DNA from: Astrocystis sublimbata
Lineage: Eukaryota; Ascomycota; Sordariomycetes; Xylariales; Xylariaceae
DNA length: 55,838 bases
Assembly: GCA_022453515.1 (NCBI GenBank)
Contig: JAJNNY010000115.1
Coordinates: 1 to 55,838 of the forward strand
Direction of reading: 5' to 3'
The notes under the pieces are model-generated. The model was not told where the DNA came from. It saw only the letters and a program-made list of their open reading frames with translations, and made no database searches. The first letter of the stretch is position 1; each line of letters starts with the position of its first letter. Shown here piece by piece: positions 2,661 to 36,910 of the stretch. The translations under genes and the position numbers were made by a program.

Positions 2661-5600
2661 CTAAAAAAGCACCTCCCCTCTCCTCTCAACCAAAAACCCC
2701 ATCGCGCTCTCCAGCTCATCAAGGAGTTCCTCCGCCATGCCCAACCAGTCTCTAAACGTGACAATCTCAAACATCAGCTCATCTCCCTTGACAAAAGCCT
2801 GGCACTTCCACTCCTTCAGTGGCTCATAGTGAGGATACACCGTCTCCATGGTGCCTCCCAGACCACCTCCGAACCCGAGTTCTTCAACATGCGCCACATC
2901 CTGATGCACAACACTATCGAACCAATCGACACTCCCCTTCCCACTCTCACTCATACCCCCCTCGCCACTCCCCTCAACCTCCCACCCAGTCGTACACTCC
3001 CGAACAATCTCCCCCAGCGCCATGCCCTCATGCCCGGCACTCGCAACATGCTGATCCATAACCGCCTCCAGGAGGTTCTCCCCCGTCCAGCCATCTTCAA
3101 ACCTGACTCTCACAGGGACGTACTGCCACGTTGGGCCTACCACAACGTCCGCATCCCTGAGATCAATATTCCTCCCGGACACAACCTCTCCAAAAAGCAC
3201 ATCCCTAACCCCGAGCCTCTTCGCAAGAGTCAAGGCCCACGCCGCCGTCGGCAGCGTCGCAACCGTAATATCCCTACTGCGTTTACTAATATCCAGCGTC
3301 CTCGTCACAGCCCCAGGAATCTTACTTCCCAACACAAATCTCCCTTCCTCGGGCCTCAGCACCGTAACGCCCTTCGTACCCCTCAGCAACTCCGTCCAAT
3401 ACGGAATCGCAGCCGGAATGCTCTTGTTCAGGGTATGATAGACAAAGCCCGAAAACGGCGCCGAGGGGCGCGTAGGGCGGTCTTCATAAAGCGCCGCAAG
3501 CTCCCTGATCAGGATCGGGAGACACACCTCGTCGTACTGCGCGTGCGAGATACGAATAGCAAGACAACTCTTATCGCTTCCCGCCTTTTGGACATAGAAG
3601 AACTTCACAAACAGCGAGCCAAGCGGCAGGCTCGTCTGAACATCGAGATCGCAAAGCTTGTGCGCAAAGGACTTAAGATCGCCTTCGACAACATATTCAT
3701 CAATAGCAGCCGTCACGCTCTCGACAACAACACCATAGCATGTGCTCCCCGACGCCGGGGTCACGAACAGCGTGCGCAGCATCTCGTTCCGCTTGACCAG
3801 GTCCTGGCATGCGCGGAGGAGCTTAGCCTTGTTGACGGTGCCGGAGAGGTGGAAGAGTTCATAGCGCGACGAGTAGCGTGGGAGCTGCGTCGTGCCGGTC
3901 ACAGCGACATGTTGCAGGGGGCGCGTGGGGTAGACATCCAAGATCTTGAGGTCGTTGCGGAAGAGCAGGGGTTGTATCGTCTTGGTAACAAAAGCCTCTT
4001 TATCAGCGACATCTAGCAGGGAGAAAGGTGTTGGAGCTAGCGGCTTCGCTTCCGTAGATGACGACGCGACGTTGCGTTCCCGGATAGTCTTGGCCATCTC
4101 GTAGAGTGTGCGGTGCTGGAAGATTTCCGGCACAGTCAAGTCGAGGTCCTTGGCGCGCAGGTCCGAGACGAGCTTCATTGAGCCGATCGAGTCGCCGCCT
4201 AGTTGGAAGAAGCTATCGTTGAGCCCAATCTCTTCTTCGTCGATGCCTAATATCTTGCTCCATGCCTGGCGGAGGACTTTCTGTCTCGGCGAGCTGACTT
4301 TCATGGCCTTCTTCTGCTTCAATACCGGCTTTGAGGGCTGGCGACGCGACGCCTCGATCAAAACGACCTTCGCATCGTCCGTGTATTTCGCTAGTCGTTT
4401 CGTTCGGTAGAGAGTGCCCCTTGGTGACTGGCTTGATTGATGGGGACTGTTAACTTGTTCCATCTGAAGAGCGCTGGTGCTTCGCACTAGCAATTCTCCC
4501 ACGGCGCCCCTGGGTACAAGGCGATCGAGCTGAAGAGGATCTACAATCATTGTCTCAGTAACGGTACAGCCTAAGGGGAGTAGAGTAGACCCCGCTAGGC
4601 TTAAGCCAGCTGTGCGACCGAGCTGCACCAGCTCTGTGACGTCGTCCTCAGACACCAAGTCCACTTTACCGCATTGCAAGTCCGGGTTCTGGATGAACTG
4701 CTGCGTGAGGTGTCCGAGCTGGCGCAAGATCTTCTCCATCCGGGGGGACGTTACGGTCTTGGAGTCGAAACTGGCCATGATAAGGAATCCCTTTGGATCC
4801 AGCGAGCACACCAGCATCAGAGCATACGTGTTAAACTTGAGCGCCTCCTGCGCTGCCTCGTTATCTCCGGCTGGCACGAAGCCGTCCGCCGCCTGTTTCT
4901 CACCGCGAGCCGCATCATCGTCAGCGGTGCTCGGGTGCATCACGATGCCCGTCCGCAGCTCACACGCTTCCCGCGCATCCGGGCTGAGACGACGAATATG
5001 CTGCAGGCCGAAATGCTCGTGGGGGATGCCAGCAACGGACTGATCGTGGACCTCTTGCAGATACTCCGCAATCGTGGCTTCTGGGTCCACCGTCAAACGC
5101 AGGGGCACAGTGGCGATCATCGGGCCTTCAATTTCCTCGACGCCGGGGATGGGCGCATTGCGCCCGGTGAGTGTTTCGCCGAAGACGACGTCGCCCGAGG
5201 CGGTATATCTGGACACCAGCATGGCCCAAGCTCCACGAATGATCGTGGCTATTGTATTGCCCGTTGTGAGCTTACCGGTAGGGACGTAGTGCTCTAGTAA
5301 GGAGTCCGCCTGCTGCTGATAGCCCGAATATGGCAGGGCGGGGAACTGCTCGCCAGCGGCACCAGCGAGACGCTCGCGCCAGTAGGTCTCTGATTCCACA
5401 CGGTCCATTTCGAGTAAGTATTTGATGAAGTGCTTGAAATCTGCAGGTCGCTCGGTTGGTTGGCCATTATAAGCTCTATTGACACGGTCCACAATCAGAG
5501 GCATACACCAACCGTCGTAGAGTGCGTGGTGCATCGTGAGCATGAAGTATGCCTTGCCTGCCGTCTTATCGGCATAGACACCGTACCGCACAAGAGGTTT

Positions 5601-8018
5601 TCCCAAGCCCACTTGTATCTTTCGATCATTCTCCAGATACTCTTTCAAGGTTCCTCCCGGTGTTGATTCATATGCGAAGTCGTCCTTGATGACTACTTGC
5701 ATCAGCCCATGCTCAGGCACTTGGACAATCCTAGTGCGGAGGATAGGGCAATCAGAAGATGCGGTTCGGAACGCTTCAAGCAGGTCCTCAGCTGCTTTGC
5801 GGTCTGCGACTTCAACCACACGCTGCGCCACATAGGCCTCACTGATCTTAGCAGAGAGGGCCATGAGGCCTTCTTGCAGGGGTGTACAGGCATAGACATC
5901 CTCGACCTTGCTCGCAGGTACCTCGCAGAACGCCGCGCACTCAGCTCGCGCCGCGTCTTCGGTCCATTCGGTACCGATGAGCGAGAAAGCAGGAATCTCG
6001 GCAGCGGCTTGCTCGACCCCAGCCTTGGCTGCGATGGCCATGTCAGCTAGCACGGGGTTGCTGAAGATGTCCGCAACAGTGATAGACACTTCTTGGGTGC
6101 GTGCTTCAGCGACCAGCTTCATGGCGCGAAGCGAGTCTCCACCGATGGCAAAGAAGTTGTCATGCGCGCTCAGATCCATATCCGTTCCAAGCAGCTTACA
6201 CCATATGCTCGCGAGCTTGATCTCCATGGGCGTGGAAGGTTCCCTCCTCGGGACAGCCACCGCGGCATAGCTGGCCAATTCCTTCCGGCTTAGGGCTGAC
6301 CCTAATTCTCTCAGGCGCTTGCGATCGGTCTTTGCGGATACGAGCAAGGGCATGACTTGAAGCGGGATATAGACGGCCGGGATCATGTAGATTGGGAGGT
6401 CGTTGGACAGGAGGCCATTCATTCTCGCAAGGGCGTCCTGAACTTGAGCAGAGTGAGAGCCGATGAGGGGCTCCGAATCACCGACTAGACCTGCCCTCTC
6501 GGCGATGAAGGCGACCAAAGTAGGCTCCCCGGAAGCTCCCCCGGGCTTTATAACTTCTATGGCCATTCGAGTGCCAGGGGGCAATTTGTCGCGCATGTTG
6601 TACTCGATCTCCGCGAGCTCGATTCGCTGACCTCGGAGCTTCACCTGCTGATCGGCACGTCCAGCAAATAGGATGGTGCCATCCTCATCGTATCTAACCA
6701 GATCACCGGTCTTATAGAGTCTCCCCTTGCGTCCGGGGTAACTGGGAGCTCCGGCGAGGAGCCATTTCGGGTTGTTGATGAAGACTTCAGCGGTTTTTTC
6801 GGGTTCGCCTAGATATCCAGGGCCGACTATTGGGCCTTCAATCAACAACTCGCCAACTGACCCGATGGGTACAAGTTGCTCGTGGTCAGCTTGCTCCACG
6901 ATCCAGGTGGCGGCGCCTACACCTCTGCCTATACTGATATGCGGCTTGTGCGACTCCCTGCCTACATCACTGTTGACAGTACATCCGACGGTACACTCTG
7001 ACGGCCCGTACGCGTTGACGACTTTCGTGGTCTTGCTCCAGATCGAGGAGTCACCGGCCGAGATGGCCTCGCCTCCTAAGCCGAGGACGTCGAGGGAGGG
7101 AATGACGTCCGGCTCAAGCACACGGGCTACTGAAGGTGTCATGTGAGCCATGTTGACCTTCATTTTGCGGATGGCGCCGCTCAAATTGTTAATCCGGTCA
7201 GCATCCGAAGGTATGCAGAGGCAACCACCAACAGATAGTGTGCAGAGCATGCAGTCTATGCATACGTCAAATGCGTACGATGCGAAATCAAGCACCCTCG
7301 AATGCGACTTGTAGCCCACCGCCTCCCTGCGGGGAATCGCGCCGCTCGTGTAGTTCCCATGAGTAATGAGCACGCCCTTGGGCTTGCCGGTACTGCCCGA
7401 GGTGAATTGTATGTAAAGATTTGTGTTGAGCGAGACCTTAGGCAGTTTTGAAGGCGCCTTGATGGTATCCAGTAACTGTTGTGTCAACGTAAAGCGAGTC
7501 GCATGAGGGGCAATACGGCTCCCAAGATCTTCCTGTAGCTTAGAAGTTATGAGGACAGTTGCACCTGTTTGTTCGACGATGGTCCGTAACCTGCCTTCGG
7601 GTTGGCTGGGGTCAGTAAGTGCGAAAGTGAATCCGGCCTTCATCACGGCGAGGACGGCGACGGCGGTCCACCGGGACTTTTCGAAGCACAGTGGTATGTT
7701 AGCCCCCGCCGCAATGCCCAGCGAAGCTAGCTTGCTGGCGAACAGGTCTGACAATGCATCGATGTCGTGATATGTGAAATTGCCATCCCAGGACTCAATG
7801 GCAAGACTTTGCGGCTTCTTCTGTGCTTGCTCCTTGATCAGATCGTGCATACAGGTCTCCAGCGTCTCGGGGAGTGGCGAATTCCAGCTCCATAGCTGTT
7901 CTAGTTGCTCGGGCGCAAGACCATCTGCTTCTACATCAGTAGGCGGTGTCGACCGAGCAGAGGCAGCCTCATCGGTAGCCGAGCAATCGAAGCCGTTGAC
8001 TGTGAAAGGAGAAAGCAT
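2661..8018 (-). CDS. sidD: NRPS, fusarinine/TAFC-type siderophore synthetase (A-T-C-A*-T-C)
   Basis: Single-exon nonribosomal peptide synthetase of 1785 residues. I start it at ATG 8018 because the longer frame begins at a TTG. Domains in order: adenylation (about 40-585; core FTSGSTGKPKG near 205, NAYGPSE near 335, YKTGD near 435); carrier domain with GGDS near 626-629; condensation with MHHALYDG near 829-836; an adenylation remnant of only ~100 residues (about 1130-1230, retaining GAVGELLV); a second carrier with GGDS near 1274-1277; and a terminal condensation domain. There is no thioesterase. This arrangement is known for SidD/NPS6 enzymes, which join and cyclise acylated N5-hydroxyornithine units into extracellular ferric siderophores. 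My hand-aligned A-domain code is D-V-D-H-G-G-A-V-G-K. The last condensation motif reads SHAQYDE, not the usual YDG ending. No hydroxylase, transacylase or transporter gene is adjacent. Another A-T-C-T-C enzyme is possible. Confidence 0.78.
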   Translation of the reverse strand: MLSPFTVNGFDCSATDEAASARSTPPTDVEADGLAPEQLEQLWSWNSPLPETLETCMHDLIKEQAQKKPQSLAIESWDGNFTYHDIDALSDLFASKLASLGIAAGANIPLCFEKSRWTAVAVLAVMKAGFTFALTDPSQPEGRLRTIVEQTGATVLITSKLQEDLGSRIAPHATRFTLTQQLLDTIKAPSKLPKVSLNTNLYIQFTSGSTGKPKGVLITHGNYTSGAIPRREAVGYKSHSRVLDFASYAFDVCIDCMLCTLSVGGCLCIPSDADRINNLSGAIRKMKVNMAHMTPSVARVLEPDVIPSLDVLGLGGEAISAGDSSIWSKTTKVVNAYGPSECTVGCTVNSDVGRESHKPHISIGRGVGAATWIVEQADHEQLVPIGSVGELLIEGPIVGPGYLGEPEKTAEVFINNPKWLLAGAPSYPGRKGRLYKTGDLVRYDEDGTILFAGRADQQVKLRGQRIELAEIEYNMRDKLPPGTRMAIEVIKPGGASGEPTLVAFIAERAGLVGDSEPLIGSHSAQVQDALARMNGLLSNDLPIYMIPAVYIPLQVMPLLVSAKTDRKRLRELGSALSRKELASYAAVAVPRREPSTPMEIKLASIWCKLLGTDMDLSAHDNFFAIGGDSLRAMKLVAEARTQEVSITVADIFSNPVLADMAIAAKAGVEQAAAEIPAFSLIGTEWTEDAARAECAAFCEVPASKVEDVYACTPLQEGLMALSAKISEAYVAQRVVEVADRKAAEDLLEAFRTASSDCPILRTRIVQVPEHGLMQVVIKDDFAYESTPGGTLKEYLENDRKIQVGLGKPLVRYGVYADKTAGKAYFMLTMHHALYDGWCMPLIVDRVNRAYNGQPTERPADFKHFIKYLLEMDRVESETYWRERLAGAAGEQFPALPYSGYQQQADSLLEHYVPTGKLTTGNTIATIIRGAWAMLVSRYTASGDVVFGETLTGRNAPIPGVEEIEGPMIATVPLRLTVDPEATIAEYLQEVHDQSVAGIPHEHFGLQHIRRLSPDAREACELRTGIVMHPSTADDDAARGEKQAADGFVPAGDNEAAQEALKFNTYALMLVCSLDPKGFLIMASFDSKTVTSPRMEKILRQLGHLTQQFIQNPDLQCGKVDLVSEDDVTELVQLGRTAGLSLAGSTLLPLGCTVTETMIVDPLQLDRLVPRGAVGELLVRSTSALQMEQVNSPHQSSQSPRGTLYRTKRLAKYTDDAKVVLIEASRRQPSKPVLKQKKAMKVSSPRQKVLRQAWSKILGIDEEEIGLNDSFFQLGGDSIGSMKLVSDLRAKDLDLTVPEIFQHRTLYEMAKTIRERNVASSSTEAKPLAPTPFSLLDVADKEAFVTKTIQPLLFRNDLKILDVYPTRPLQHVAVTGTTQLPRYSSRYELFHLSGTVNKAKLLRACQDLVKRNEMLRTLFVTPASGSTCYGVVVESVTAAIDEYVVEGDLKSFAHKLCDLDVQTSLPLGSLFVKFFYVQKAGSDKSCLAIRISHAQYDEVCLPILIRELAALYEDRPTRPSAPFSGFVYHTLNKSIPAAIPYWTELLRGTKGVTVLRPEEGRFVLGSKIPGAVTRTLDISKRSRDITVATLPTAAWALTLAKRLGVRDVLFGEVVSGRNIDLRDADVVVGPTWQYVPVRVRFEDGWTGENLLEAVMDQHVASAGHEGMALGEIVRECTTGWEVEGSGEGGMSESGKGSVDWFDSVVHQDVAHVEELGFGGGLGGTMETVYPHYEPLKEWKCQAFVKGDELMFEIVTFRDWLGMAEELLDELESAMGFLVERRGEVLF

Positions 8019-8437
8019 GACTGCTTCAAGAATTGGGCAGCTGCTTTGGGAAAAGGTATGAGGTGGCAAATGATATGAGCAATTGACGTCAGTTCATACT
8101 CAAGTTGCTCTTCTCTTCCGAGATGATATATAACTTTGCATGTCATGAAATGGTGTCAGTGAGGATATCCGAGGATGCAGGAATCCAGCAAAGACGACGA
8201 AAGTGTCACGACCCAGAGATGGGGTCATATATGGAGGGTATGATCGACCCCATCCTCATTACTACCGACAGCGGTGGTCCCCCGAATGAAGGGACCTACC
8301 CATTTAGGCCACAACGCTCGCCTCGCCGGGGCGAATTAATCCAGTCAGCCCACGCATTTGGCTTGTTGCAGCCATAGGAGAGCGAAATAAGCCAGCAGGG
8401 ACCCGAAGCCGGCCGACTAGGCGCCGCCTGGCCTCGG

Positions 8438-12749: not shown

Positions 12750-14257
12750 TCACAGAACACCTCCACCACAACGCAGCAACACCCGCATCCCCTCCACCGC
12801 ATGCTCCGCAAGCACTCCCAAATCCAGGTCCCCAAGCGGCTCAAACAGCGCCCCAAGCTCGTTCCTCAACTTCTCCGCATCGAGACCAGCGGCCTGATCC
12901 TGGCCACAGAACAGCCTTCCCGTCCTTCGTCCATTCTCGACAACTTCCTGGCACCGGGGCCACCGCACTGCACTGAATGTCTTCAAGGCGGTCGGGACTT
13001 CGGCGGCGGATGATACGGCGCCCAGAAGATGTCCGAGGACGAAGGCGTCCTCGATGGAGATGCCGGCGCCGGCGCCCTGCCACGGCGAGGTCGCGTGGGC
13101 CGCGTCGCCGAGGATGCAGATGCGCTTGCGGGCGTAGGTCGGGGTTGTTTTGTGCTCCCATTGCGCGTAGCCTTTGGGGGAGTCTTGGTCGAGGATCAGC
13201 TATGTGACAGTTAATCATCTGATGCCCAACCAGGATTTGCGCGTACGATGTGATTGCCAAAGAGATCAATCAGCTCTTAAACTCCCACGGTGACCTCGGA
13301 AGACGACAAGAGGACTACTACTCACCTCAACCATACCCTTAGCAACAGGCCCCTGGTCCCAACTTGCGGGCAGCGCATCTCTCAGTGACTCTCTCGTCAC
13401 CTCCCGCTTCCGATCAACAGAGAAACTCTTATCGACCACCGCAATGATGCACTGGACCATGGTTTTATTCTCCACAAGGCCATGCAGCATCGCCGCGCCG
13501 TCGCCCAGCCATGCATACTGCCGGTCAACTTTGAAGGACTCCTCCCCGAGCACCTCTTTCGCTTTCTCAAAGGGCACCAGCCGTCTGCAATCCCACCACC
13601 CGGCCGGCGACGCAGCATGTTCCTCCCACTCCTCTATAAAGAGGTATTTTCGGACCGAGCTGAAAATGCCATCGGCGCCGACGACGGCGTCGAAATGCGC
13701 CGAGGTCCCGTCTTCAAAGGCCACAACGACTTCAGAAACGCTCTGTTCCAGGGACTGCAGGCGTTTCCCGGCATGCAGTTTATCCTTGGGAAGCAAGGAG
13801 AGCAGCGTCTGGAGAAGCGGTGCGCGGCTCAGTGTCAGTCCGGCGCTTTCTTCGAGATCAGCCACGAGGGCGCCGGCTGAGGGCCCGGAGCCCTGGCTTA
13901 TGTGTCAGTCATGGTCTCAGTCTCCGTCTCAGTCTTGACACTGTAAAATGAAGATAAAGATGAGAATGAGCATGAGGTAAGTAGGTAAATAAGTCAAGCA
14001 CTTACAATGACAAGACGAGCCGCATCAGCCTCAACAGCCCCAGCCTTTGTCTTCAGTAACTCAACAGCGGAAGGGATGATGTCGTCGAGGGCCTCGAGGG
14101 CCAGCGGTGACAGCCCGATGCCGGCACCGCGTTCCGTGAACTCGGGCGCCGACTCGTAGACGTGTACGTCCAGATGCTGGTGTTTGGTGAGGGCGATGGC
14201 GGTCGTGAGCCCGGCGAGGCCGCCGCCGATTATGCCGATTCGGATCCGCTCGGCCAT
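12750..14257 (-). CDS. FAD-dependent monooxygenase, salicylate-hydroxylase-like
   Basis: Three exons by splice consensus: 14257-14006, 13892-13326 and 13199-12750, all phase 0, giving 422 residues, the usual length for group A flavin hydroxylases. The N-terminus carries the dinucleotide-binding IGIIGGGLAGL motif followed by VYESA. The middle has VVGADGIFSSVRK, the conserved DG motif. Exon 3 has ILGDAAHATSPWQGAGAGISIED, here split across text: ILGDAAHATSPW binds the FAD ribityl chain. Such enzymes hydroxylate aromatic or other ring substrates using NAD(P)H and O2; the substrate here is unknown. It is clearly related to the gene at 24929. Intron 1 uses the acceptor ending at 13893, because an earlier acceptor would put a stop in frame. 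Confidence 0.85.
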
Positions 14258-15114
14258 TGTTGCGTTCCAAATTCTGGGATTGTCTGATTTTTGTTGATGA
14301 AATAAATAGCTATGATTCAGCTTGCTTCGGTGAGATGTGATGAGCTCTAAGACACAAAGCCGCGCCATGGTCTGTTGGCAAGCCTGTATGGCCCCTTTGA
14401 TGCATGACATGGGCCAACAATAACATTATTGTGGTTATCTCCAGGCCCCAACTACCTCCTCTCTCGGCTGCGGCGATCTTTCTAGGACTGATGTGCATTG
14501 GTGTCCGAAAGAGGCACTTTGACCCCAACATCCATGTTGGGATTTGTCGATCTTCGGATTTGGACGCATCACGGTTCAATTGATTCGATCAAGCTCATGA
14601 ATTCAATTCCTGCGAGATGGACGAATCACACATGTAACAGCAATTCTAAACACATTGCTGTCCATTAATGTTGCATACTAGGCATCTAGGTAGCGATGCA
14701 GCGCACATCGTGAGCTTTAGTGGAACAATACAACGGAGGATCTACAGCAATTCAATCCGACAAGGCTCTTCCCCTTCCCCCAGCTTGGACACAGCACTAC
14801 CGGGGTCGACGGCTTCTTGCTATGTCGCTGCTGTCGAGGTAGGAAGATTACATATGGGATTGTTCGCTATGAAAGCCCGTCGTTGTCAGAGCAATTAGTT
14901 GCTCTGGCCAGTCTTCTCCACCGTCGGCCCCGGGGACGAATCCTTCAGCATCGAATAAAATCGCGCGTTTGTTTCTCCGCGTCATTTCATTAAAATCCTT
15001 CAATAAGCCATTATGTAAGAGTATATATAAAAAATCATGCTTACCATGGCAGCCTGAACTTAATTTGCTATACTTTTTTTTTCCACTTGGTGATATTGTT
15101 TTTTCTCCAGCGCC
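14258..15114. other. Divergent promoter region, no gene
   Basis: It separates the minus-strand monooxygenase from the plus-strand amidase, so it probably holds both promoters. A T-rich tract lies at 15061-15083 just before the amidase start. No gene seen. Confidence 0.5.
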
Positions 15115-17440: not shown

Positions 17441-18553
17441 CTAATTGGCATGTCCAGATTTAAATCGTTCATTCGGCAGACCGTCCAATGCTTCGGCTTC
17501 GCCGGACGGCGCCGGCACGAGTGCATCAATGAATTCATCCATGTCGGCATACTGGACTCTTCTATTGTCTGCCCAATCCTGTATACGGTCCCAATTGGTG
17601 CATTTCCGGGCCCCAGACCGGTCGCCCTTGATCGTGCGAGGATCCTTCCAGAAAAATGTGTTCATCGAGATGTCTGCGTTGCACATAATACCCTCGCGGA
17701 GAACTTCAAGACAATGGTCTATTCATACTTTAGTGACGGTACTAGGGAGGCGTGCAACTATAAAGAGTACTTACCAATATGCATCGATGAGAATGTATCG
17801 CCCCCTTTGAGCTCGGGATAGGCGCCTTGATGCCGAAATTGGTAGATTCGTTTCTACTAGCTGTTAATCACTATCTATATCATGGCCTTGCGCAGCTTCT
17901 GATGTTGAGCATCACTCGTTAACGTACCACACAATGAAGCATATGATGAGCCTCAAGGTAACCGAGGTATCCAGAACCATCTTTCATCTGGATGGAGGTT
18001 TTGTTCATCATCCTCATCTCGTCTTCAGAAACCTTCACCATTGTTGCTATTATGTACTATCAACCTGGCTGTTGATACATGATACCAGAAACCTGGAGCA
18101 CTTACCTCGTAATAAGTTTGACCAAGCTTGGTCAAGCTCATAGCGTGGCTCGCCAACAAACGGACTCGATCCATATCCAAGCAGCTCTACCTTATATTCA
18201 ATGGCAGACTGTGCAGGTGCTGAATCAACCCCTATCGTCAGTGGAATCACATAGACCATGACAAGGAAATTCTTACAGAATGTTCGTTTCAGATCTGACT
18301 CGTTAAACCTGTTGTCTAAATGGACCTCGTTCATCAAAGTCTTGCTGGTCCGTAGAAGCAGGGCAAAGTTCAAGATCAAGAAAAGCAGGTTAAATAAACC
18401 AAAAACACCATTCAAGCTAAAGAGATGGGTTCGTTTTGGGTGTGGCTTGATCTTAGACCCTTTTGAGGCTTCAGGTATACCCTCATCGGCCGTCAAGAAA
18501 GGCTCCTGCTCCTCGTGAGTCTGGAGCATCATCTTCCAGGACATTGAATCCAT
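17441..18553 (-). CDS. UstYa-family oxidase/cyclase A (DUF3328)
   Basis: Five exons: 18553-18277, 18219-18106, 18046-17928, 17853-17775 and 17718-17441, encoding 288 residues. Features follow UstYa order: a short cytosolic N-terminus with EEQEPFL, one membrane helix (near residues 45-65), an SPAQSAIEY segment, DGSGYLG, the first metal motif HHMLHC, and the second motif DHCLEVLREGIMCNAD with CTNWDRIQDW near the end. UstYa proteins are established as copper-dependent oxidative enzymes that form ring links in fungal RiPPs such as ustiloxin and asperipin; some homologues chlorinate or hydroxylate. It is divergent from UstYa-like gene B and close to a repeat-type precursor, which supports a RiPP role. 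Intron 1 must end at the CAG at 18222-18220, since the next CAG brings a stop into frame. Confidence 0.9.
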
Positions 18554-19332
18554 GAGGGGTTGTGGCAGGAATGAAGATGAGCAATGTGGTGATGGGGTGA
18601 TGGGGTGAGCTTTAGAGCGGGAAATTCTCAGATTTTTTGTTGCATGCACCAAACTACATGTTAGGTGCTTGCCGGGGTCCGATCCAAGTATTGTAGGACT
18701 TTTTTGTTCAGGAATTTTCGAAATGAAGAAGTGGTATGTTGCAAGGCTTGTGTGATGTGACTCGGAGTGCCTGGTACCTTGGTACGGATCCTTCTGACGA
18801 TTCAACCGGCATTAGGACCAGCCGTCAAATAAATTCAAGCTATACCTATCAGAATAATGTCTATTGCGTCGGCCCCTTTTTGACAGTAGAGGCAACGATT
18901 GCCACGTTACAGTTCTGAGGACCTTCATAAGCTACTGTAGTAAGATTTTAGTCCGCTGTGTCTTTTACGCCACATAATGAGATCCCCCAGAGCTCTACTC
19001 GTATGATCGACACTTGGCCCCATAGTAGCCTCGGTAGCATTCGGACACGATGCAAAGTTAGGTCATGAGAAGGGGAGTCCCGATTTTCCGGTTTGAATCA
19101 ATGTAACGCTGGAGACGCAATGGACTTATGCAAGGCATTTTCTCGCCGAGTAAAGCCACGCCCCTGTGAACCTATTCCTTGAATTGATGGTCCTGCGGAT
19201 AGTGCACGCATCCTTATGTGAGATTTGGTCTCATTTATTCAATGACAGTGTGATTTTTATCGCTCAGAGCTTTGCCCATCCTAAATTTGTTTTTTGTGCC
19301 AATAGTGGTGCGAACCCAGTTCTCATACTTAC
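18554..19332. promoter_or_regulatory. Shared intergenic promoter region of two UstYa-like genes
   Basis: About 780 bp separate two head-to-head UstYa-like genes, so the region must hold both promoters and could coordinate them. I could not pick out a convincing regulator site by eye. Confidence 0.5.
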
Positions 19333-20375
19333 ATGTTATTGATCAGAGATCGAGACATGTCGAATGAAGAACAAAAGCCATTTCTTGACGAGAGTCAAGA
19401 TGAGAGCCAAAACACCCTACAAAGCTCCATTGTGAGAGAGAACTTTGCCAAGCAACAGAGTCGGTTTTGGAGTCCTATCCAGAAGCTTTCTGTGATTGCG
19501 AACCTGCTGCTACTCGTCATGTGCATTTTCTTGACAGCAACGATCGCGGTCAAGTCTGCAGGTGGAGGATCGTCGGCGACCAGACACAGCAACGACAAAA
19601 TCTCTGAGCCGTATTGTATGTTGCTTCCTGTACCTCACACAATATAGAACTGACGTTTTTGTGCGTGCTCCTTTCAGCTCCTGCGGCTTCTTTCATAGAA
19701 TACGAGTATCGACCTATAATTCCCAACGACACTCGCTTCACTGGCCATCCGGGACCAGAATGGGAGCATTCTATGCATGAACTCATGACAGGCAAGTTGT
19801 TCGTTGGTTAATCTTCATCACCCATTTCTCACACGAAGCTATCAGGTACCCTCATCCGTATTAGCGAGGAGGAGCTAAGTCGATCTGGCTCAAACTCTAT
19901 TTCGTTGAAGGATGGCGGGTATGCAGCAGGGCTCGGAGTCGGCCATAATCTCCATTGTATTGTAAGTACAAGAGTCTCCATTCTTGGTGATTAGATTAGA
20001 TGGTCTCATCACAATTTATTTGATAGAAACAGATAAAAAAGTTCCTATATCGCGAACACTTTTATCCCAACCTCAGCGAAGACAAAGATCAGTTCGAATA
20101 TACCCAGACCCATGCAGGTAAGTGGTACTTAATTCCTGATGCCACAACCCTAACGCTTCATGGCTAACAGGCTATTAGATCATTGTCTTGACTTTCTACG
20201 TCAAGAGATGCTATGCAACTTGGACTACTCATTGTGGACATTGTATTGGGGAGAAAGGCAGCAGGACATTCCAACACATCAGATTCCTTCTGAGAGAAAG
20301 TGCATCAACTGGGACAAATTGCATTCTTGGATGGGAACGAGAGCCGCTAATACCGACATGCTGGTGCGGCCATGA
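19333..20375 (+). CDS. UstYa-family oxidase/cyclase B (DUF3328)
   Basis: Five exons: 19333-19615, 19678-19791, 19846-19961, 20027-20117 and 20179-20375, encoding 266 residues. An alternative start at 19357 (MSNEEQKPFL) aligns better with gene A. It has a membrane helix near residues 54-75, then SPAASFIEY, ISEEEL, KDGGYAAG, the metal motif HNLHC (preceded by Gly where gene A has His), and DHCLDFLRQEMLCNLD with CINWDKLHSW. The second intron has a GC donor (GCAAGT at 19792) and an ordinary CAG acceptor. All four intron positions and phases match gene A, showing common origin. Expected role: oxidative ring closure on the peptide encoded 1 kb downstream on the same strand. Confidence 0.9.
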
Positions 20376-21381
20376 GGGAGCAGTTTTGATTCGAATATGT
20401 TAGTCCTGATAGCTCGAAGATACAAGTTAGATGAAGCATAAATCTTGCATTCTAATCACATATGAATATGATTTTATGAGTTGATACAACATAAAAACCC
20501 ACGGGGTGCTTTGCATCCCACAGGGAAAAGCAGACTGGACTTTGGTAATCTGTTTTCCGTGGAGGTGAGGACTAGGACATATCCCGATAAACTCCACGGA
20601 CCATGAACACTGTCGCTTTTTAGCAAGACCTGTTTGAACAACACCAAGAACCTAGTGAAGTGGGGAGTTAGGCAGACCCTGAAGATCCAGATAGCGCCCC
20701 GGGAAAGAACAGCCATTGCAATTCTTAGTCATAGTCATCGCAAGAGATCAGCAATATTCAGTGCCGCTAGCCTGCAGGAGAAAGCCTGGGTGATCCACCC
20801 CGACGTCGTATTATCAAATGTCTAGCCTACGGCGAGGGTGTGTCGTAGCATGCGGAAGGTATCTCTCAGTAAGCTGTGATATTACTCCGTGGGTTGCATT
20901 GCGCTTATTCTACATGTTTCTTCCGATAGCTACGATCTGTGATCGTGCCTCCATCTAAAACATTGCCGACATACCCATCCTGACTTGTTGCGATACGAGT
21001 TCTTAACCACAGGGCTGCATTTTCGATACTAGCGTGTAACATCAACGTCTTGTTCCGATGATACTGGCCTGCGATTGGTCATTGTATACATGTGCCCAGA
21101 GAGCAGGATCATGCAGTCTCCTCCTCGAGTTTAAAACATATTTCGTGAAACTAGAAGTGATTCTCGGTGGCAACGTAGGTTCGTCCTAGTAATCACCTAA
21201 TCCGACCATGTATTGTTTAGTACGTGATCTATAAGATCGTCATTAGCTGCTCATTTATTTTTATTTCCAGAGTAAGCGCCATATTTATTAAGAACAAAAA
21301 ATATCTTTCGTAGTCATCGCTCTAACTCACACTTCAAATCTGCACATACACTTATACACGCATTAAGTTCCTTGCATCATC
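20376..21381. other. Intergenic, promoter of the precursor gene
   Basis: No coding potential beyond short frames without motifs. The last ~150 bp are AT-rich and then C/T-rich before the precursor start, as expected of a fungal promoter and leader. Confidence 0.5.
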
Positions 21382-21676
21382 ATGAGAGGCACTACCCTTA
21401 CTCTATTCGTGGCTATTGCCGCAGCTTTGCCATTCGGACCTGGTATGTAGTTAAACTTTGAAGTGTTTAGCAACTTAGCTAGTTCTAACATTTTACCCTG
21501 CGCAAGGCCAACACAAGTCTGCGGGAGATATCGAGCAGCGCGACGGCACTACAGAGTTCGATCCTGACTTTGCTCTCAAGTCAAAGCGCGACGGCACTAC
21601 AGAATTCGATCCCGACTTTGCTCTCAAGTCAAAGCGAGATGGGACTACAGAGTTTGATCCCGACTTCGCTCTTTAG
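21382..21676 (+). CDS. Repeat-type RiPP precursor peptide (Kex2-processed)
   Basis: Two exons, 21382-21442 and 21507-21676, joined phase 1 across a 64-bp intron (GTATGT donor), giving a 76-residue protein. Residues 1-19 are a signal peptide (basic start, hydrophobic core, Ala-rich end). A short leader ending in EQR follows, then three units: DGTTEFDPDFAL plus KSKR, the same again, and a final DGTTEFDPDFAL ending at the stop. KR pairs are classic Kex2 cleavage sites, so secretion-pathway processing would release identical peptides. This layout, beside two UstYa genes, is that of dikaritin precursors (ustiloxin, phomopsin, asperipin types). The repeats are identical in protein but differ at synonymous positions. 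No Tyr is present; Phe and Pro in FDPDF are candidate modification sites (inference). A mating pheromone is a weaker alternative. Confidence 0.88.
21542..21673 (+). repeat. Three in-frame 48-bp precursor repeats
   Basis: Units lie at 21542-21589, 21590-21637 and 21638-21673; the last lacks the KSKR codons. Differences between units fall only at synonymous sites (for example GAG/GAA for Glu, TTC/TTT for Phe, CCT/CCC for Pro), so the peptide is kept while the DNA drifts. Confidence 0.95.
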
Positions 21677-24928: not shown

Positions 24929-26251
24929 ATGTCTCGACCCATTCGCGTCGCCATATCGGGTGGCGGCCTAGCTGGCGCGTCATTGATGCAAGCTCTATTC
25001 CGCTACCCTCACCTCGATGTCCATGTCTTCGAGTCAGCTTCGGCCTTCAAGGAAGCTGGCCTAGCTATCGGCATCACTCGGAACGCCCAGGCCGCACTCG
25101 ATCTTCTTGGCCCTCCAGCCCCTGAGCTTCTGAAGCGTTCCGGAGCTGTTCCTATGGCAGGCGTACGCTTCATGATCGCCCAGGGCGAGGGGGCAGGCCA
25201 AGTCATCAATGAAGTTGACCATTCCTCAGGCGAGCGTCTCACTAGTATCATCCATCGCGCCGAATACCTGCAGCAGCTGTTGGCCGATGTTCCAAAAGAA
25301 CGGCTGCACGCTTCCAAGAAACTCGAGAGTATCAAACAGAATCCCGACGGCTCTGTTACGCTACACTTTGCCGATGGGACAAACCACGAGTGCGATATTC
25401 TTGTGGGTGCCGACGGTATCCATAGTACAGTACGGAAAGTCTTGCTCGGCGAGGACGACCCCGCAGCACACCCGAGAAACACAGGTGTTTGGCTAGTAAT
25501 GAGCCTCCAGCCTTTTGCAAAGGCTCAAGCTATCATGGGTGAGGAGCTCGTCGCTTCTGGCGATGCGCGTGAGTACTCTTGGGTTGGGGAAGGCACGTAT
25601 ATCCTACATAATCTGCTTAGCGACGGGCAATTGGTCCAGTTTGTCATCGCCTCAAGCGACGACGAAGCCGAGGCATCATCTCAATGGCGTCGGACCGTTC
25701 GCGCGGATGAGATTAAAAAGCTATATGCCGAATGGCCGACGAATCTCCGGCAAGCCGTTGACGAGGTATGGGCTCGACCTTAAAACAAGATGACTTATGC
25801 TGATAGCAAATAGCTACTTTGCCAGGAGCCCGAGCAACAGGGCATGTACCTTTGGGAGCACCTGCCAGCCCGCACCTACGCTTCCGGGCCCCTTTGTTTG
25901 ATGGGGGATGCCGCCCATGCTACGACACCTTGGCACGGCTCTGGCGGTGGTATGTCTGTCGAAGACAGTCTTATTCTATCCACGCTACTGGGGCGCGCAA
26001 GATCACCAATTGAGGCTCAAGCCGCTCTCAAGGCCTATGATCATGTTCGCCGCCCTCGCACCCAACGGATTGTTGAATCTAGTCGCGTCACGGGCATGAT
26101 GCTTCTGGGCAAAGGAGGGCAGACCGGTATGGAAATGAAGAAGTCGGGAAATCTACTTCCAAGGTGGGACTTTATCTTGGACCTTGACATGCTGGAACAT
26201 CGCAACCAGGCCATACAAAAGATGCTGGATGAGTTGGCTGTCTCGGCCTAG
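24929..26251 (+). CDS. FAD-dependent monooxygenase, salicylate-hydroxylase-like
   Basis: Two exons, 24929-25765 and 25814-26251 (phase 0), 424 residues. An alternative acceptor at 25825 would drop four residues. Motifs: VAISGGGLAGAS for the FAD-binding fold, VFESA, LVGADGIHSTVRK (DG motif) and LMGDAAHATTPWHG (GD motif). The length matches group A aromatic hydroxylases. The protein is a relative of the one at 12750-14257, sharing motif spacing, but introns fall at different places. Two such genes flank the UstYa/precursor core on either side. Flavin monooxygenases do act in some dikaritin pathways, so a tailoring role is plausible; an independent aromatic-catabolic role is equally possible. 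Confidence 0.87.
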
Positions 26252-27548: not shown

Positions 27549-29057
27549 ATGGAACCCGATACAGCAACATACGTTACCAAGAGCAGCCTGACTGCGATTG
27601 GGGTTCTCTTTCCGGTGCTCGGCTTGCTCGCCCTCACAGCACGTTTTTACTCATGGCGACACAAGCCCAGGGAGCTCGCAACTGATGATGTCCTAATATT
27701 GCCCGCTGCCGTGAGTAGAATAACTCATTATCTTGAGTGAAAACACCAAGCCTGCTCTGGAGCTGACGCGGCTTCCAGTTTCTTGACATCGCTGCTGGTG
27801 TTGCCATCATCATAGGTGCGAATCGTTACCCGAGGCCGACGTATTTGAAGGGGCATTGTCTTACAGAGAGGCACAGGCGCACAGTTGAACATCATAGGCG
27901 GACATTCGCTACCAATGATCACTGAAACCGAACAGGTTCAACTCGGCAAGGTTGTTTTTGCTTACAGTTCTAGTGTTATCCGATCAAAAGACTGATTATC
28001 TTTCTCTAGTTCGAATATGCCTTCTGGATTGGCCATGTACTCGCAACTGGTGCAATCAAGTTGACAATCTTATCGCTTTTCCGTATTTTATTCGGCGGTG
28101 AGTTGTTGCGATGGACGATGACGCATGCTCGTGAAGGCTAGCACTAACCTTCAGCCCTTCACGTAGGACGGTCATATTGGACTCCCTTTGATTATTCCAA
28201 CTGGACACTTATCACACTTGTCTCTCTTTGGACCACCGTGTTCTTCTTCTTCGAGATCCTAGCATGCGGGTCACATCCTGAGGCCAGTTGGTCTAGCCTT
28301 GCCTCATTGCGTAACGACTGTGTGGACACATTTGGGCTCCAGACCGGCGGTGCAGTGTTCAGTTGGGTTTTAGATCTTGCCATCTTCATCGAACCTCTTC
28401 TAATGGTACACTCCCATGTTTCGCCGAACAACAACAGACTTTTGACATGTACTAGATTCGGACATTGAACATGACCTTCAAAAGAAAGGTGCAGGCATCT
28501 CTAGTCTTTCTTGGAAGTGGCTTGTAGGTTCAGTAATCGATATCTTTGATCTATATACACGACTGAAATAGAACCAGTGCTGTCATAGCAGGTCTTCTGC
28601 GATTAATTCCGTGGGTCCAAATCAAGATTCAAGACCTGACGCATCCGATCATCACGGTTGTTGCAACGAACCTAGAAATCGCGGATCAGGAAGGTAACGG
28701 CACCCGCTCAACGGGAAACTTCCACGCTGACCTAATTTCTTAGCCATCGTTTCGATTGTCCTGTTCTGGACGTACATTGAGATAGGGACTGGATTTCTGG
28801 TCGCTTGTCTGCCTCGAAGTGCCTGGCTCTTTGACAAGCTATCACTTCGTCCTATCGTCAAGAGACTTCGCTCAATTCCCTCGATGAAGTCTCTCCACTT
28901 GTGGGATCGTACATCCTCCCAACAGAACGAACGCAGCACAAAGCCCTCTCAAGAGGAGGCCTCCAACAACAGTATGGAAATGTCGAACCAGTACTATTAT
29001 CCTGGACATTCAGACGCGGTTAGCTGGAGTAAGGTCTCGACCTACAACCACGTCTAA
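27549..29057 (+). CDS. Fungal rhodopsin-domain 7TM membrane protein 1
   Basis: Eight exons: 27549-27710, 27779-27815, 27871-27950, 28010-28097, 28167-28405, 28456-28523, 28578-28693 and 28744-29057, together 367 residues with every phase matching. The product has about seven hydrophobic helices. It shows the features of the large fungal rhodopsin-domain/PTH11-related family: DDV after helix 1, an LTILSLFRILF helix, WTPFDYSNWTLITLV, the cysteine-bearing loop, and a helix near the C-terminus with YIEIGTGFLVACLP. A polar Ser/Gln-rich cytosolic tail follows. Members act as putative receptors or have unknown roles; no ligand can be deduced. Exons 2 and 3 are short, so their exact ends are the least certain part. 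Confidence 0.78.
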
Positions 29058-35507: not shown

Positions 35508-36910
35508 ATGGTGAAGTCAACCAAAAATATCAGGTCGATGATGAATCAACTCAACGTAGATAAGTTGAGCGACAGCCAACGTGTTCAATCCATCGAAGCA
35601 GCGAGGAAGCTGATCAGCAGGCTCCAAACCAATGGGGAGAAAATGCATGAACTAACCTATGTCCAACCGATTGTCTTTGCTATGCTTCAGGCAGGCCTCG
35701 ATGTTGGGTTGTGGGCAGGATGGACGCAGGTCGGTGGTGACTCGAAGACGGTGTCTGAACTCAGTCAAGTGTGCAAACGCGAGATTGAGCCGGAACTACT
35801 CCGTAAGTGAGATGTGCCGTCAACGGCTTCAGACCCGTCATCGTCTGTTAACTTCATTGCAGGCCGAATGCTGCGCCTGCTAGCTGCAGCGAACATCATT
35901 GAAGAGGTTGGTGAAGATACGTTCAAGTCGACACCGTTTTCTTTCGCCTGCGGCGATAGCGAAAGCTTCGTTCCCAGGACAATCCTATGCTCGTGAGTAA
36001 CTCACCAGAGGGGCAGAGTGGCAGGTAAGAACCAGAAGAATCACTAATCAGGGTACTATATGGCAGTACCCATCATTTCTTGCCGGCGGGAATTAGCCTG
36101 CCCAAGTATCTAGCTGAGATCGGATACAAGAATCCGCGTGATTCCGTAAAGTCGAACTATGTATTTTGGGAACCTGGCCACAGGGACCTCTTTACCCGAT
36201 TGATGGCCGAGCCAGAACAGCAGGATTCCTTCAGCGGTTGGATGAGATGCTGGACAGACCAAAAGCTGCCGTGGGTCGAGTACTTCGACACCAATACTCT
36301 GGTCGAAGGTGCAGACCTGAGTGCGGCACCGCTCTGTATTGATGTCGGAGGCCACCACGGGATCGACTTGAGCCGGATCGTGGATAAGCACCCAAACATA
36401 CCGAATGGCTCACTGGTCTTGCAGGACTTGCCCAAATGCCTCTCCGAGGTAAAGGGGTTGAGCGAGAAAATCAGGATGATGGACTACGATTTATTCACTC
36501 CACAGCCAGTGAAAGGTATGCAAGTCCACCACCATGGGCAGAGATGGCCAGTCAACGGCTGCCGAAAGAGGAAGATGTGTGCTGACGATCGAGCAGGGGC
36601 ACGTTCCTATTATCTCCATTGCGTCATCCACGACTGGTCGGAGGATAGAGCCCGTTTGATATTGGAGAATACCGTGAATGCGATGAAGAAGGGCTACTCA
36701 AAACTGTTGATCAATGAGATCGTCATGCCGCGAACCGGAGCTAGCTTGACCCAGACCGCGATGGATACGCAGCTTATGGCTCTTTGCTCGTCGTATGAGA
36801 GAACCGAGCCGATGTGGACGAGTCTTCTGCAGGCGGCTGGCTTGAAGATTGTCAAGATCTGGCCCGACGGTCGCGGGCACGAGAGCGTGATCGAGGCGGA
36901 GTTGGCGTAA
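35508..36910 (+). CDS. SAM-dependent O-methyltransferase (class II, plant/fungal type)
   Basis: Four exons: 35508-35802, 35863-35992, 36052-36515 and 36597-36910, encoding 400 residues, the usual length. The N-terminal dimerisation helices precede the Rossmann methyltransferase domain. The SAM glycine loop reads LCIDVGGHHG (one Gly replaced by His), followed by VLQDLPKCL. The catalytic-base region LHCVIHDWSEDRA and the late LLINEIVMP block are also present. These enzymes methylate hydroxyls of phenols and polyketide or alkaloid intermediates. Its position, between a HET gene and the Zn2Cys6 regulator, leaves its pathway open: it could serve the aromatic metabolism block to its right or act alone. 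Confidence 0.87.

Follow-up and report, generated by a model that had tools for sequence, protein, structure and literature searches.

The window analysed here takes in all 55,838 bases of contig C19 of Astrocystis sublimbata, a xylariaceous ascomycete whose assembly comprises 42.6 Mb in 189 contigs, and in it a small gene for a repeat-containing precursor lies close to two divergent genes for UstYa-family proteins, UstYa-A and UstYa-B. It is quite likely that the locus is a UstYa-dependent (dikaritin-type) cluster for a ribosomally synthesized and post-translationally modified peptide (RiPP), in which the UstYa pair acts on units released by Kex2, and the cluster most likely makes an enzyme-modified secreted peptide whose chemistry we infer. 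An earlier note on this DNA had proposed as much for the stretch from the stop codon of UstYa-A to that of the precursor (17441..21676), and the proposal is strengthened by the presence of UstYa beside the precursor at every locus found in the genome, by contig linkage of the two for at least nine of 28 related precursors, and by purifying selection on the repeated unit.

The repeat precursor and its UstYa neighbours

The window precursor is a 100% match to the public hypothetical protein F4808DRAFT_467577 (P0001), and its spliced model agrees with the earlier description of a 76-residue protein with a signal peptide and three exact, KSKR-spaced units. The N-terminus is signal-peptide-like (judged solely from its hydropathy and from the small residues found at positions -3 and -1, with no dedicated predictor) and is followed by three identical 12-residue DGTTEFDPDFAL units, devoid of tyrosine and separated by two KSKR spacers, with the stop codon directly after the third. 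EQR, which offers no dibasic site, precedes the first unit; the other two come after KR. The array is the top tandem repeat of the window (Tandem Repeats Finder score 223, the runner-up having 88), and a scan for Kex2-type repeats picks it out as the sole segment of this sort in the window and detects nothing when the window is mononucleotide-shuffled 20 times.

Compared pairwise, the window units differ by 2, 6 and 6 synonymous changes and by no non-synonymous change, about 28 of the 36 sites per unit being non-synonymous. The units of a second precursor, on contig C132, differ from one another by 9, 7 and 10 synonymous changes, again with none non-synonymous, and comparison of the window units with those of C132 gives 6-10 synonymous changes and 2 non-synonymous. 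As the differences within the window and within C132 are synonymous only, strong purifying selection acts on the peptide unit.

A genome-wide search with the precursor yielded four matches, namely the two window exons, one match on C132 and one on C103. The C132 precursor has three DGTTEFDPDFFL units and adjoins one UstYa-A and one UstYa-B homologue, and the C103 precursor has two units, DGHSEFDADLAIL and DGASEFDADLAIL, and adjoins one UstYa gene. (A Pfam match of the C132 precursor to EKLF_TAD2, at 24.8 bits and so below the cut-off of 25, is put down to chance.) UstYa matches occur on only 19 of the 189 contigs, and a motif scan of 39 loci, among them 17 further UstYa regions and a region of C165, did not find the unit outside the three loci. 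This distribution is pertinent to the thought that the repeats yield a linear peptide, secreted for signalling or in the manner of a pheromone, with the UstYa genes acting elsewhere. Mating factors do come from Kex2-repeat precursors, but almost all the surveyed mating-factor precursors lack UstYa neighbours (PMC7329392), and with UstYa at 3/3 loci here such an origin is unlikely.

The two UstYa genes are head to head and, as the earlier note had it, carry the metal motifs of the family: both products match PF11807, at 137.7 bits for UstYa-A (with the public model P0065) and 131.1 bits for the UstYa-B splice against a cut-off of 25 bits, and each has two HxxHC motifs, HMLHC and HIDHC in UstYa-A and HNLHC and HADHC in UstYa-B. 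Alignment A1 (30 rows) has the two histidines and the cysteine of both motifs invariant, and alignment A2 (26 rows) has the first motif invariant and the second conserved at 90% or above. The HxxHC pair is reported as a mark of RiPP-related UstYa members (PMC12048977). P0065 is 278 residues long, with a C-terminus unlike that of the 288-residue splice. No protein identical to UstYa-B was present among 36 matches (the best has 69% identity over the full length, with up to 75% over about half), and UstYa-B is probably absent as such from public annotation, perhaps because its second intron (19792-19845) has a GC donor and is thus of the GC-AG type.

Relatives and tail variants in other fungi

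A search of other fungi for the precursor, as the earlier note had advised, reduced 689 candidates to 28 proteins at E<=1, 27 of them at E<=1e-6. Those named come from Xylaria, Poronia, Podospora, Cytospora and others, from Aspergillus and Paecilomyces, and from Pseudocercospora and Septoria, which we take to be Sordariomycetes, Eurotiomycetes and Dothideomycetes, respectively. In 23 of the 28 the N-terminus is strongly hydrophobic. The unit consists of a nearly constant DGTTEFDPD and a variable three-residue tail, FAL in the window. Among 79 unit matches the commonest residue at positions 1-9 is present 78, 77, 73, 76, 76, 78, 73, 66 and 74 times, and at positions 10-12 only 44, 40 and 40 times; this count fixed no position and demanded at least four of nine matches to DGTTEFDPD, and it includes one stretch of P0024 spacer, doubtful last units in P0015 and P0028, and both P0002 and P0003, which may be alternative models of a single gene. 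A narrower count, with D1 and G2 fixed and positions 3-6 restricted, gives 76 units and misses one in P0006. Conservation is inflated in both counts and in the homologue search, because matches needed shared five-residue words; the contrast between constant and variable parts is hardly a search artefact, as those words could fall anywhere in the unit. Position 10 or 12 is aromatic in 74 of the 79, the C103 units being without such a residue. On this pattern the best interpretation is that the enzymes recognise residues 1-9 and that the tail is the part that would be modified.

At least nine of the 28 precursors share a contig with a relative of UstYa-A or UstYa-B, two of the nine being from Astrocystis sublimbata itself. 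The linkage is inferred indirectly and not from maps, and the number is a lower bound because the UstYa lists hold 36 and 37 proteins and two of the precursor contigs reach no more than about 1.1 kb. Thirteen contigs bear a relative of each, and therefore the UstYa-A/UstYa-B pair travels together. A tree of 66 rows (63 of 73 database proteins, ten shorter than 180 residues having been dropped, plus three from this analysis) separates A and B relatives by a 100/100 branch, with the C103 row on the B side. Astrocystis, Ustulina, X. flabelliformis, Poronia and Bombardia form one group on either side of that branch (100/98 and 100/99), and four of these five fungi have the FAL tail (Bombardia being without a known tail and Poronia being assigned by species only, not by contig). 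The C132 and X. longipes loci have FFL, X. grammica and X. curta have F[GL]F, and Paecilomyces (by species) and A. ellipticus have [FY]xF. Tails thus partly follow UstYa clades, as judged without statistics, and the link is not strict.

Both the constancy of positions 1-9 beside the variability of 10-12 and this partial tracking (the FAL, FFL and F[GL]F groups) lend some weight to a product that is the short tail only, FAL or DFAL, the DGTTEFDPD recognition part being cut off after modification in the manner of the ustiloxin flanks, which are lost from 13- to 14-residue Kex2 peptides to proteases described as unknown (PMC6514808). The coupling of tail to clade is loosened, however, by FGF, which is found in both Xylaria and Paecilomyces though the two are not grouped together in the tree; there is no S41 peptidase match on the contig, other peptidases not having been searched for; and in 10 units of the 76-unit count residue 12 is also the last of the protein, an arrangement no less compatible with a product of 12 residues. 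Trimming to the tail is accordingly a tentative proposition, appreciable in its chances yet short of even.

The shared block and the other genes of the window

A 28.9 kb stretch of C132 (230.0-258.9 kb) and the window have five genes in common, with matching order and orientation save for an inverted UstYa-B. Identity is 47-61% by exon for UstYa-A, 43-73% for UstYa-B, 76% for the precursor, 58-66% for a flavin adenine dinucleotide (FAD)-dependent monooxygenase and 45-83% by exon for a fungal-rhodopsin-like membrane protein. The earlier note's notion of a minimal, two-enzyme pathway is put in doubt by the monooxygenase and membrane protein shared with this syntenic locus, and the pathway probably comprises more than two enzymes. 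Nearness of a rhodopsin-like gene means little in itself because the family is large (163 exon matches in the genome), and only the homology between the two loci counts. Elsewhere, C30 and C63 hold five fungal-rhodopsin matches at 94.5 bits, with a sixth at 88.4, and the equal scores suggest recent or mobile duplications. The only other matches in the C132 stretch are a short HET-domain segment at 258.6 kb and weaker ones between the window's second FAD-monooxygenase-like gene and the shared FAD gene. The closest match to that second gene, among the loci compared, is at L029 (C1:517500-527400), where a UstYa gene, a FAD monooxygenase gene and a fungal-rhodopsin-like gene occur together and a repeat precursor was not detected.

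For three other window genes, encoding a non-ribosomal peptide synthetase (NRPS), a VOC protein and an amidase, the 28.9 kb C132 stretch offers no counterpart. This is relevant to whether the UstYa genes might belong to the NRPS, with the repeat gene a bystander. UstYa proteins also serve non-ribosomal peptide pathways (PMC12048977) and the gene with condensation and AMP-binding domains is about 9 kb away, but the C132 stretch compared keeps the five genes without it, and such an allocation is highly improbable.

Table 1. Features of the window, with the evidence for each
Feature	Position	Strand	Evidence
UstYa-A (PF11807), five exons, 288 aa by splice	17441..18553	-	Pfam; HMLHC and HIDHC
Intergenic stretch, 803 bases, separating the start codons of the two divergent UstYa genes	18554..19356		Gene positions
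UstYa-B (PF11807), five exons, 258 aa	19357..20375	+	Pfam; HNLHC and HADHC
Precursor gene, two exons, 76 aa	join(21382..21442, 21507..21676)	+	Splice model; repeat array; identical public protein P0001
FAD-dependent monooxygenase (PF01494), two open exons, ends approximate	24929..26251	+	Pfam; common to C132
Fungal-rhodopsin-like integral membrane protein (PF20684 on one exon), several exons, boundaries approximate	27549..29057	+	Pfam; common to C132
NRPS with AMP-binding, condensation and carrier domains	2664-8093	-	Pfam
Second FAD-monooxygenase-like gene	12753-14425	-	37-48% identity over two exons to the gene at 24929
Methyltransferase (PF00891), outside the shared block	36029-36907		Pfam; only methyltransferase seen

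The window has 18 open frames of at least 150 residues; Pfam searches covered 17 of these and showed no transporter. Neither a tyrosinase nor an S41 peptidase has a match anywhere on the contig (a search that did not extend to other peptidases), in accord with the earlier remark that neither was evident.

A proposed pathway and its setting among known systems

On the favoured reading, that of a UstYa-dependent RiPP cluster, the N-terminus would take the precursor into the secretory pathway, and Kex2 would cut after KR to leave copies of DGTTEFDPDFAL-KSKR, the last without KSKR, the basic end being trimmed later; release by Kex2 followed by trimming of the basic end is established Kex2 logic. 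The expected products would be 16-residue peptides, of 14 residues once KR is lost, plus a 12-residue one from the precursor end. Membrane-anchored UstYa-A and UstYa-B would recognise the nearly constant DGTTEFDPD and oxidise or cross-link the peptide, most likely at the aromatic-containing tail or between Phe6 and the tail. Since the contig has no tyrosinase or S41 match and DGTTEFDPDFAL no tyrosine, the oxidation would have to use phenylalanine or another residue. A further oxidation is probably contributed by the FAD monooxygenase, and the rhodopsin-like membrane protein may have a role in transport or sensing. A bolder conception, and a long shot, is that each unit joins a DGTTEFDPD tag kept across three classes to a core of three or four residues that is free to vary, from which the UstYa pair makes a tyrosine-independent oxidised mini-peptide, with the rhodopsin-like protein as the producer's sensor.

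Several observations weigh against the cluster reading or against strictness of the clustering. Nineteen of the 28 precursors are without a linked UstYa in the lists of 36 and 37, and for Poronia, Triangularia verruculosa and Hypoxylon texense the UstYa relatives listed lie on contigs other than that of the precursor. A FAD paralogue on C165 is 65-78% identical to the window's, and so closer than the C132 copy, and C165 has no UstYa or precursor match either in 20 kb around that gene or, genome-wide, on the contig. AlphaFold2 models of UstYa-A (P0065) and of the UstYa-B relative P0030 from X. flabelliformis are mediocre, at a mean predicted local distance difference test score of 69.8 and 67.8, and a Foldseek comparison of the P0030 model with the PDB gave 89 matches at E<=10 and none at <=0.001; P0065, compared by sequence with PDB entries, had no match. 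With the models mediocre and no credible PDB match for that of P0030, no metal site is claimed, and the one long N-terminal helix that each model predicts is read as a membrane anchor. Tyrosine, through which ustiloxin, phomopsin and asperipin are cross-linked, is present in only 17 of the 79 unit matches.

Whether the term dikaritin applies depends on its sense. UstYa (DUF3328) is described as the class-defining enzyme of dikaritin-type RiPPs (PMC12048977), and the locus has UstYa beside the precursor, two HxxHC motifs in each protein, a signal-peptide-like start and Kex2-spaced cores. A narrow, earlier sense involves five gene types, including tyrosinase (PMC12048977), and the combination of tyrosinase, methyltransferase and peptidase or transporter is not found on C19. 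As a separate matter, C141 (189692-194911) has a tyrosinase match with one UstYa match at a distance of about 1.8 kb and another at about 4.3 kb, and is a candidate tyrosinase-containing dikaritin locus. An unrelated repeat precursor, with three ES[IV]NVVFKTSGAYDEDIN[AT]ADAKEVLGKR units, is present on C136 at about 55.5-56.0 kb (L019:6840-7289, plus strand), where the distance to a UstYa match is about 1.6 kb.

Among characterised systems, ustiloxin and phomopsin share with the window a signal-peptide-like start, Kex2-separated repeats and UstYa-family genes near the precursor (PMC6514808). For ustiloxin, Kex2 is thought to free the 13- to 14-residue peptides mentioned above, their subsequent cyclisation being the work of a UstYa pair together with a tyrosinase; two UstYa proteins are needed and flavin monooxygenases are used (PMC6514808). 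Unlike either system, the window contig is without a tyrosinase or S41 match and its unit without tyrosine, and the window FAD protein belongs to PF01494, in contrast to UstF1 and UstF2, which are, by description, class B flavoprotein monooxygenases; the likening of UstYa and UstYb to the window pair is likewise by description and not by sequence comparison. Asperipin-2a also has a small cluster, listed in PMC6514808 without a tyrosinase (precursor, UstYa homologue, transporter and reductase), but it has one UstYa protein and a tyrosine-rich core where the window has two UstYa proteins, and the accessory genes differ. Victorin also requires a UstYa-family (DUF3328) protein (PMC9002641), and its C-terminal phenylalanine is linked to an internal leucine (PMC9233826), a precedent without tyrosine, the likening again not involving sequence comparison.

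The kind of locus is already known, as UstYa accompanies 1758 of the 7878 Kex2-repeat precursors (KEPs) in the Umemura survey (PMC7329392); the window precursor would fall among the KEP types with UstYa, and from the accessible part of that survey a match to one listed type could not be made. The earlier note had not recognised the core, and this stands in so far as eleven unit strings are unmatched in the open-access texts searched (supplements and most subscription papers being outside the search), but the core is no one-off, given its relatives in three fungal classes. The precursor family is apparently undescribed so far, though it may stand in supplements. Nothing on ustYa together with Xylaria was met with in the literature searched. 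Hypomontagnella, H. rubiginosum and H. pulicicidum are reported to carry a ustiloxin-like RiPP cluster in a survey that took in Hypoxylaceae together with X. hypoxylon (PMC8403587); from the accessible portion of that paper sameness with the DGTTEFDPD family could not be told.

The tag DG-x-x-EFD-x-D can serve to find a whole RiPP family, with many natural tail variants and UstYa enzymes of their own. The family makes testable both how UstYa enzymes recognise their substrates and whether cross-linking by them proceeds without tyrosine and tyrosinase.

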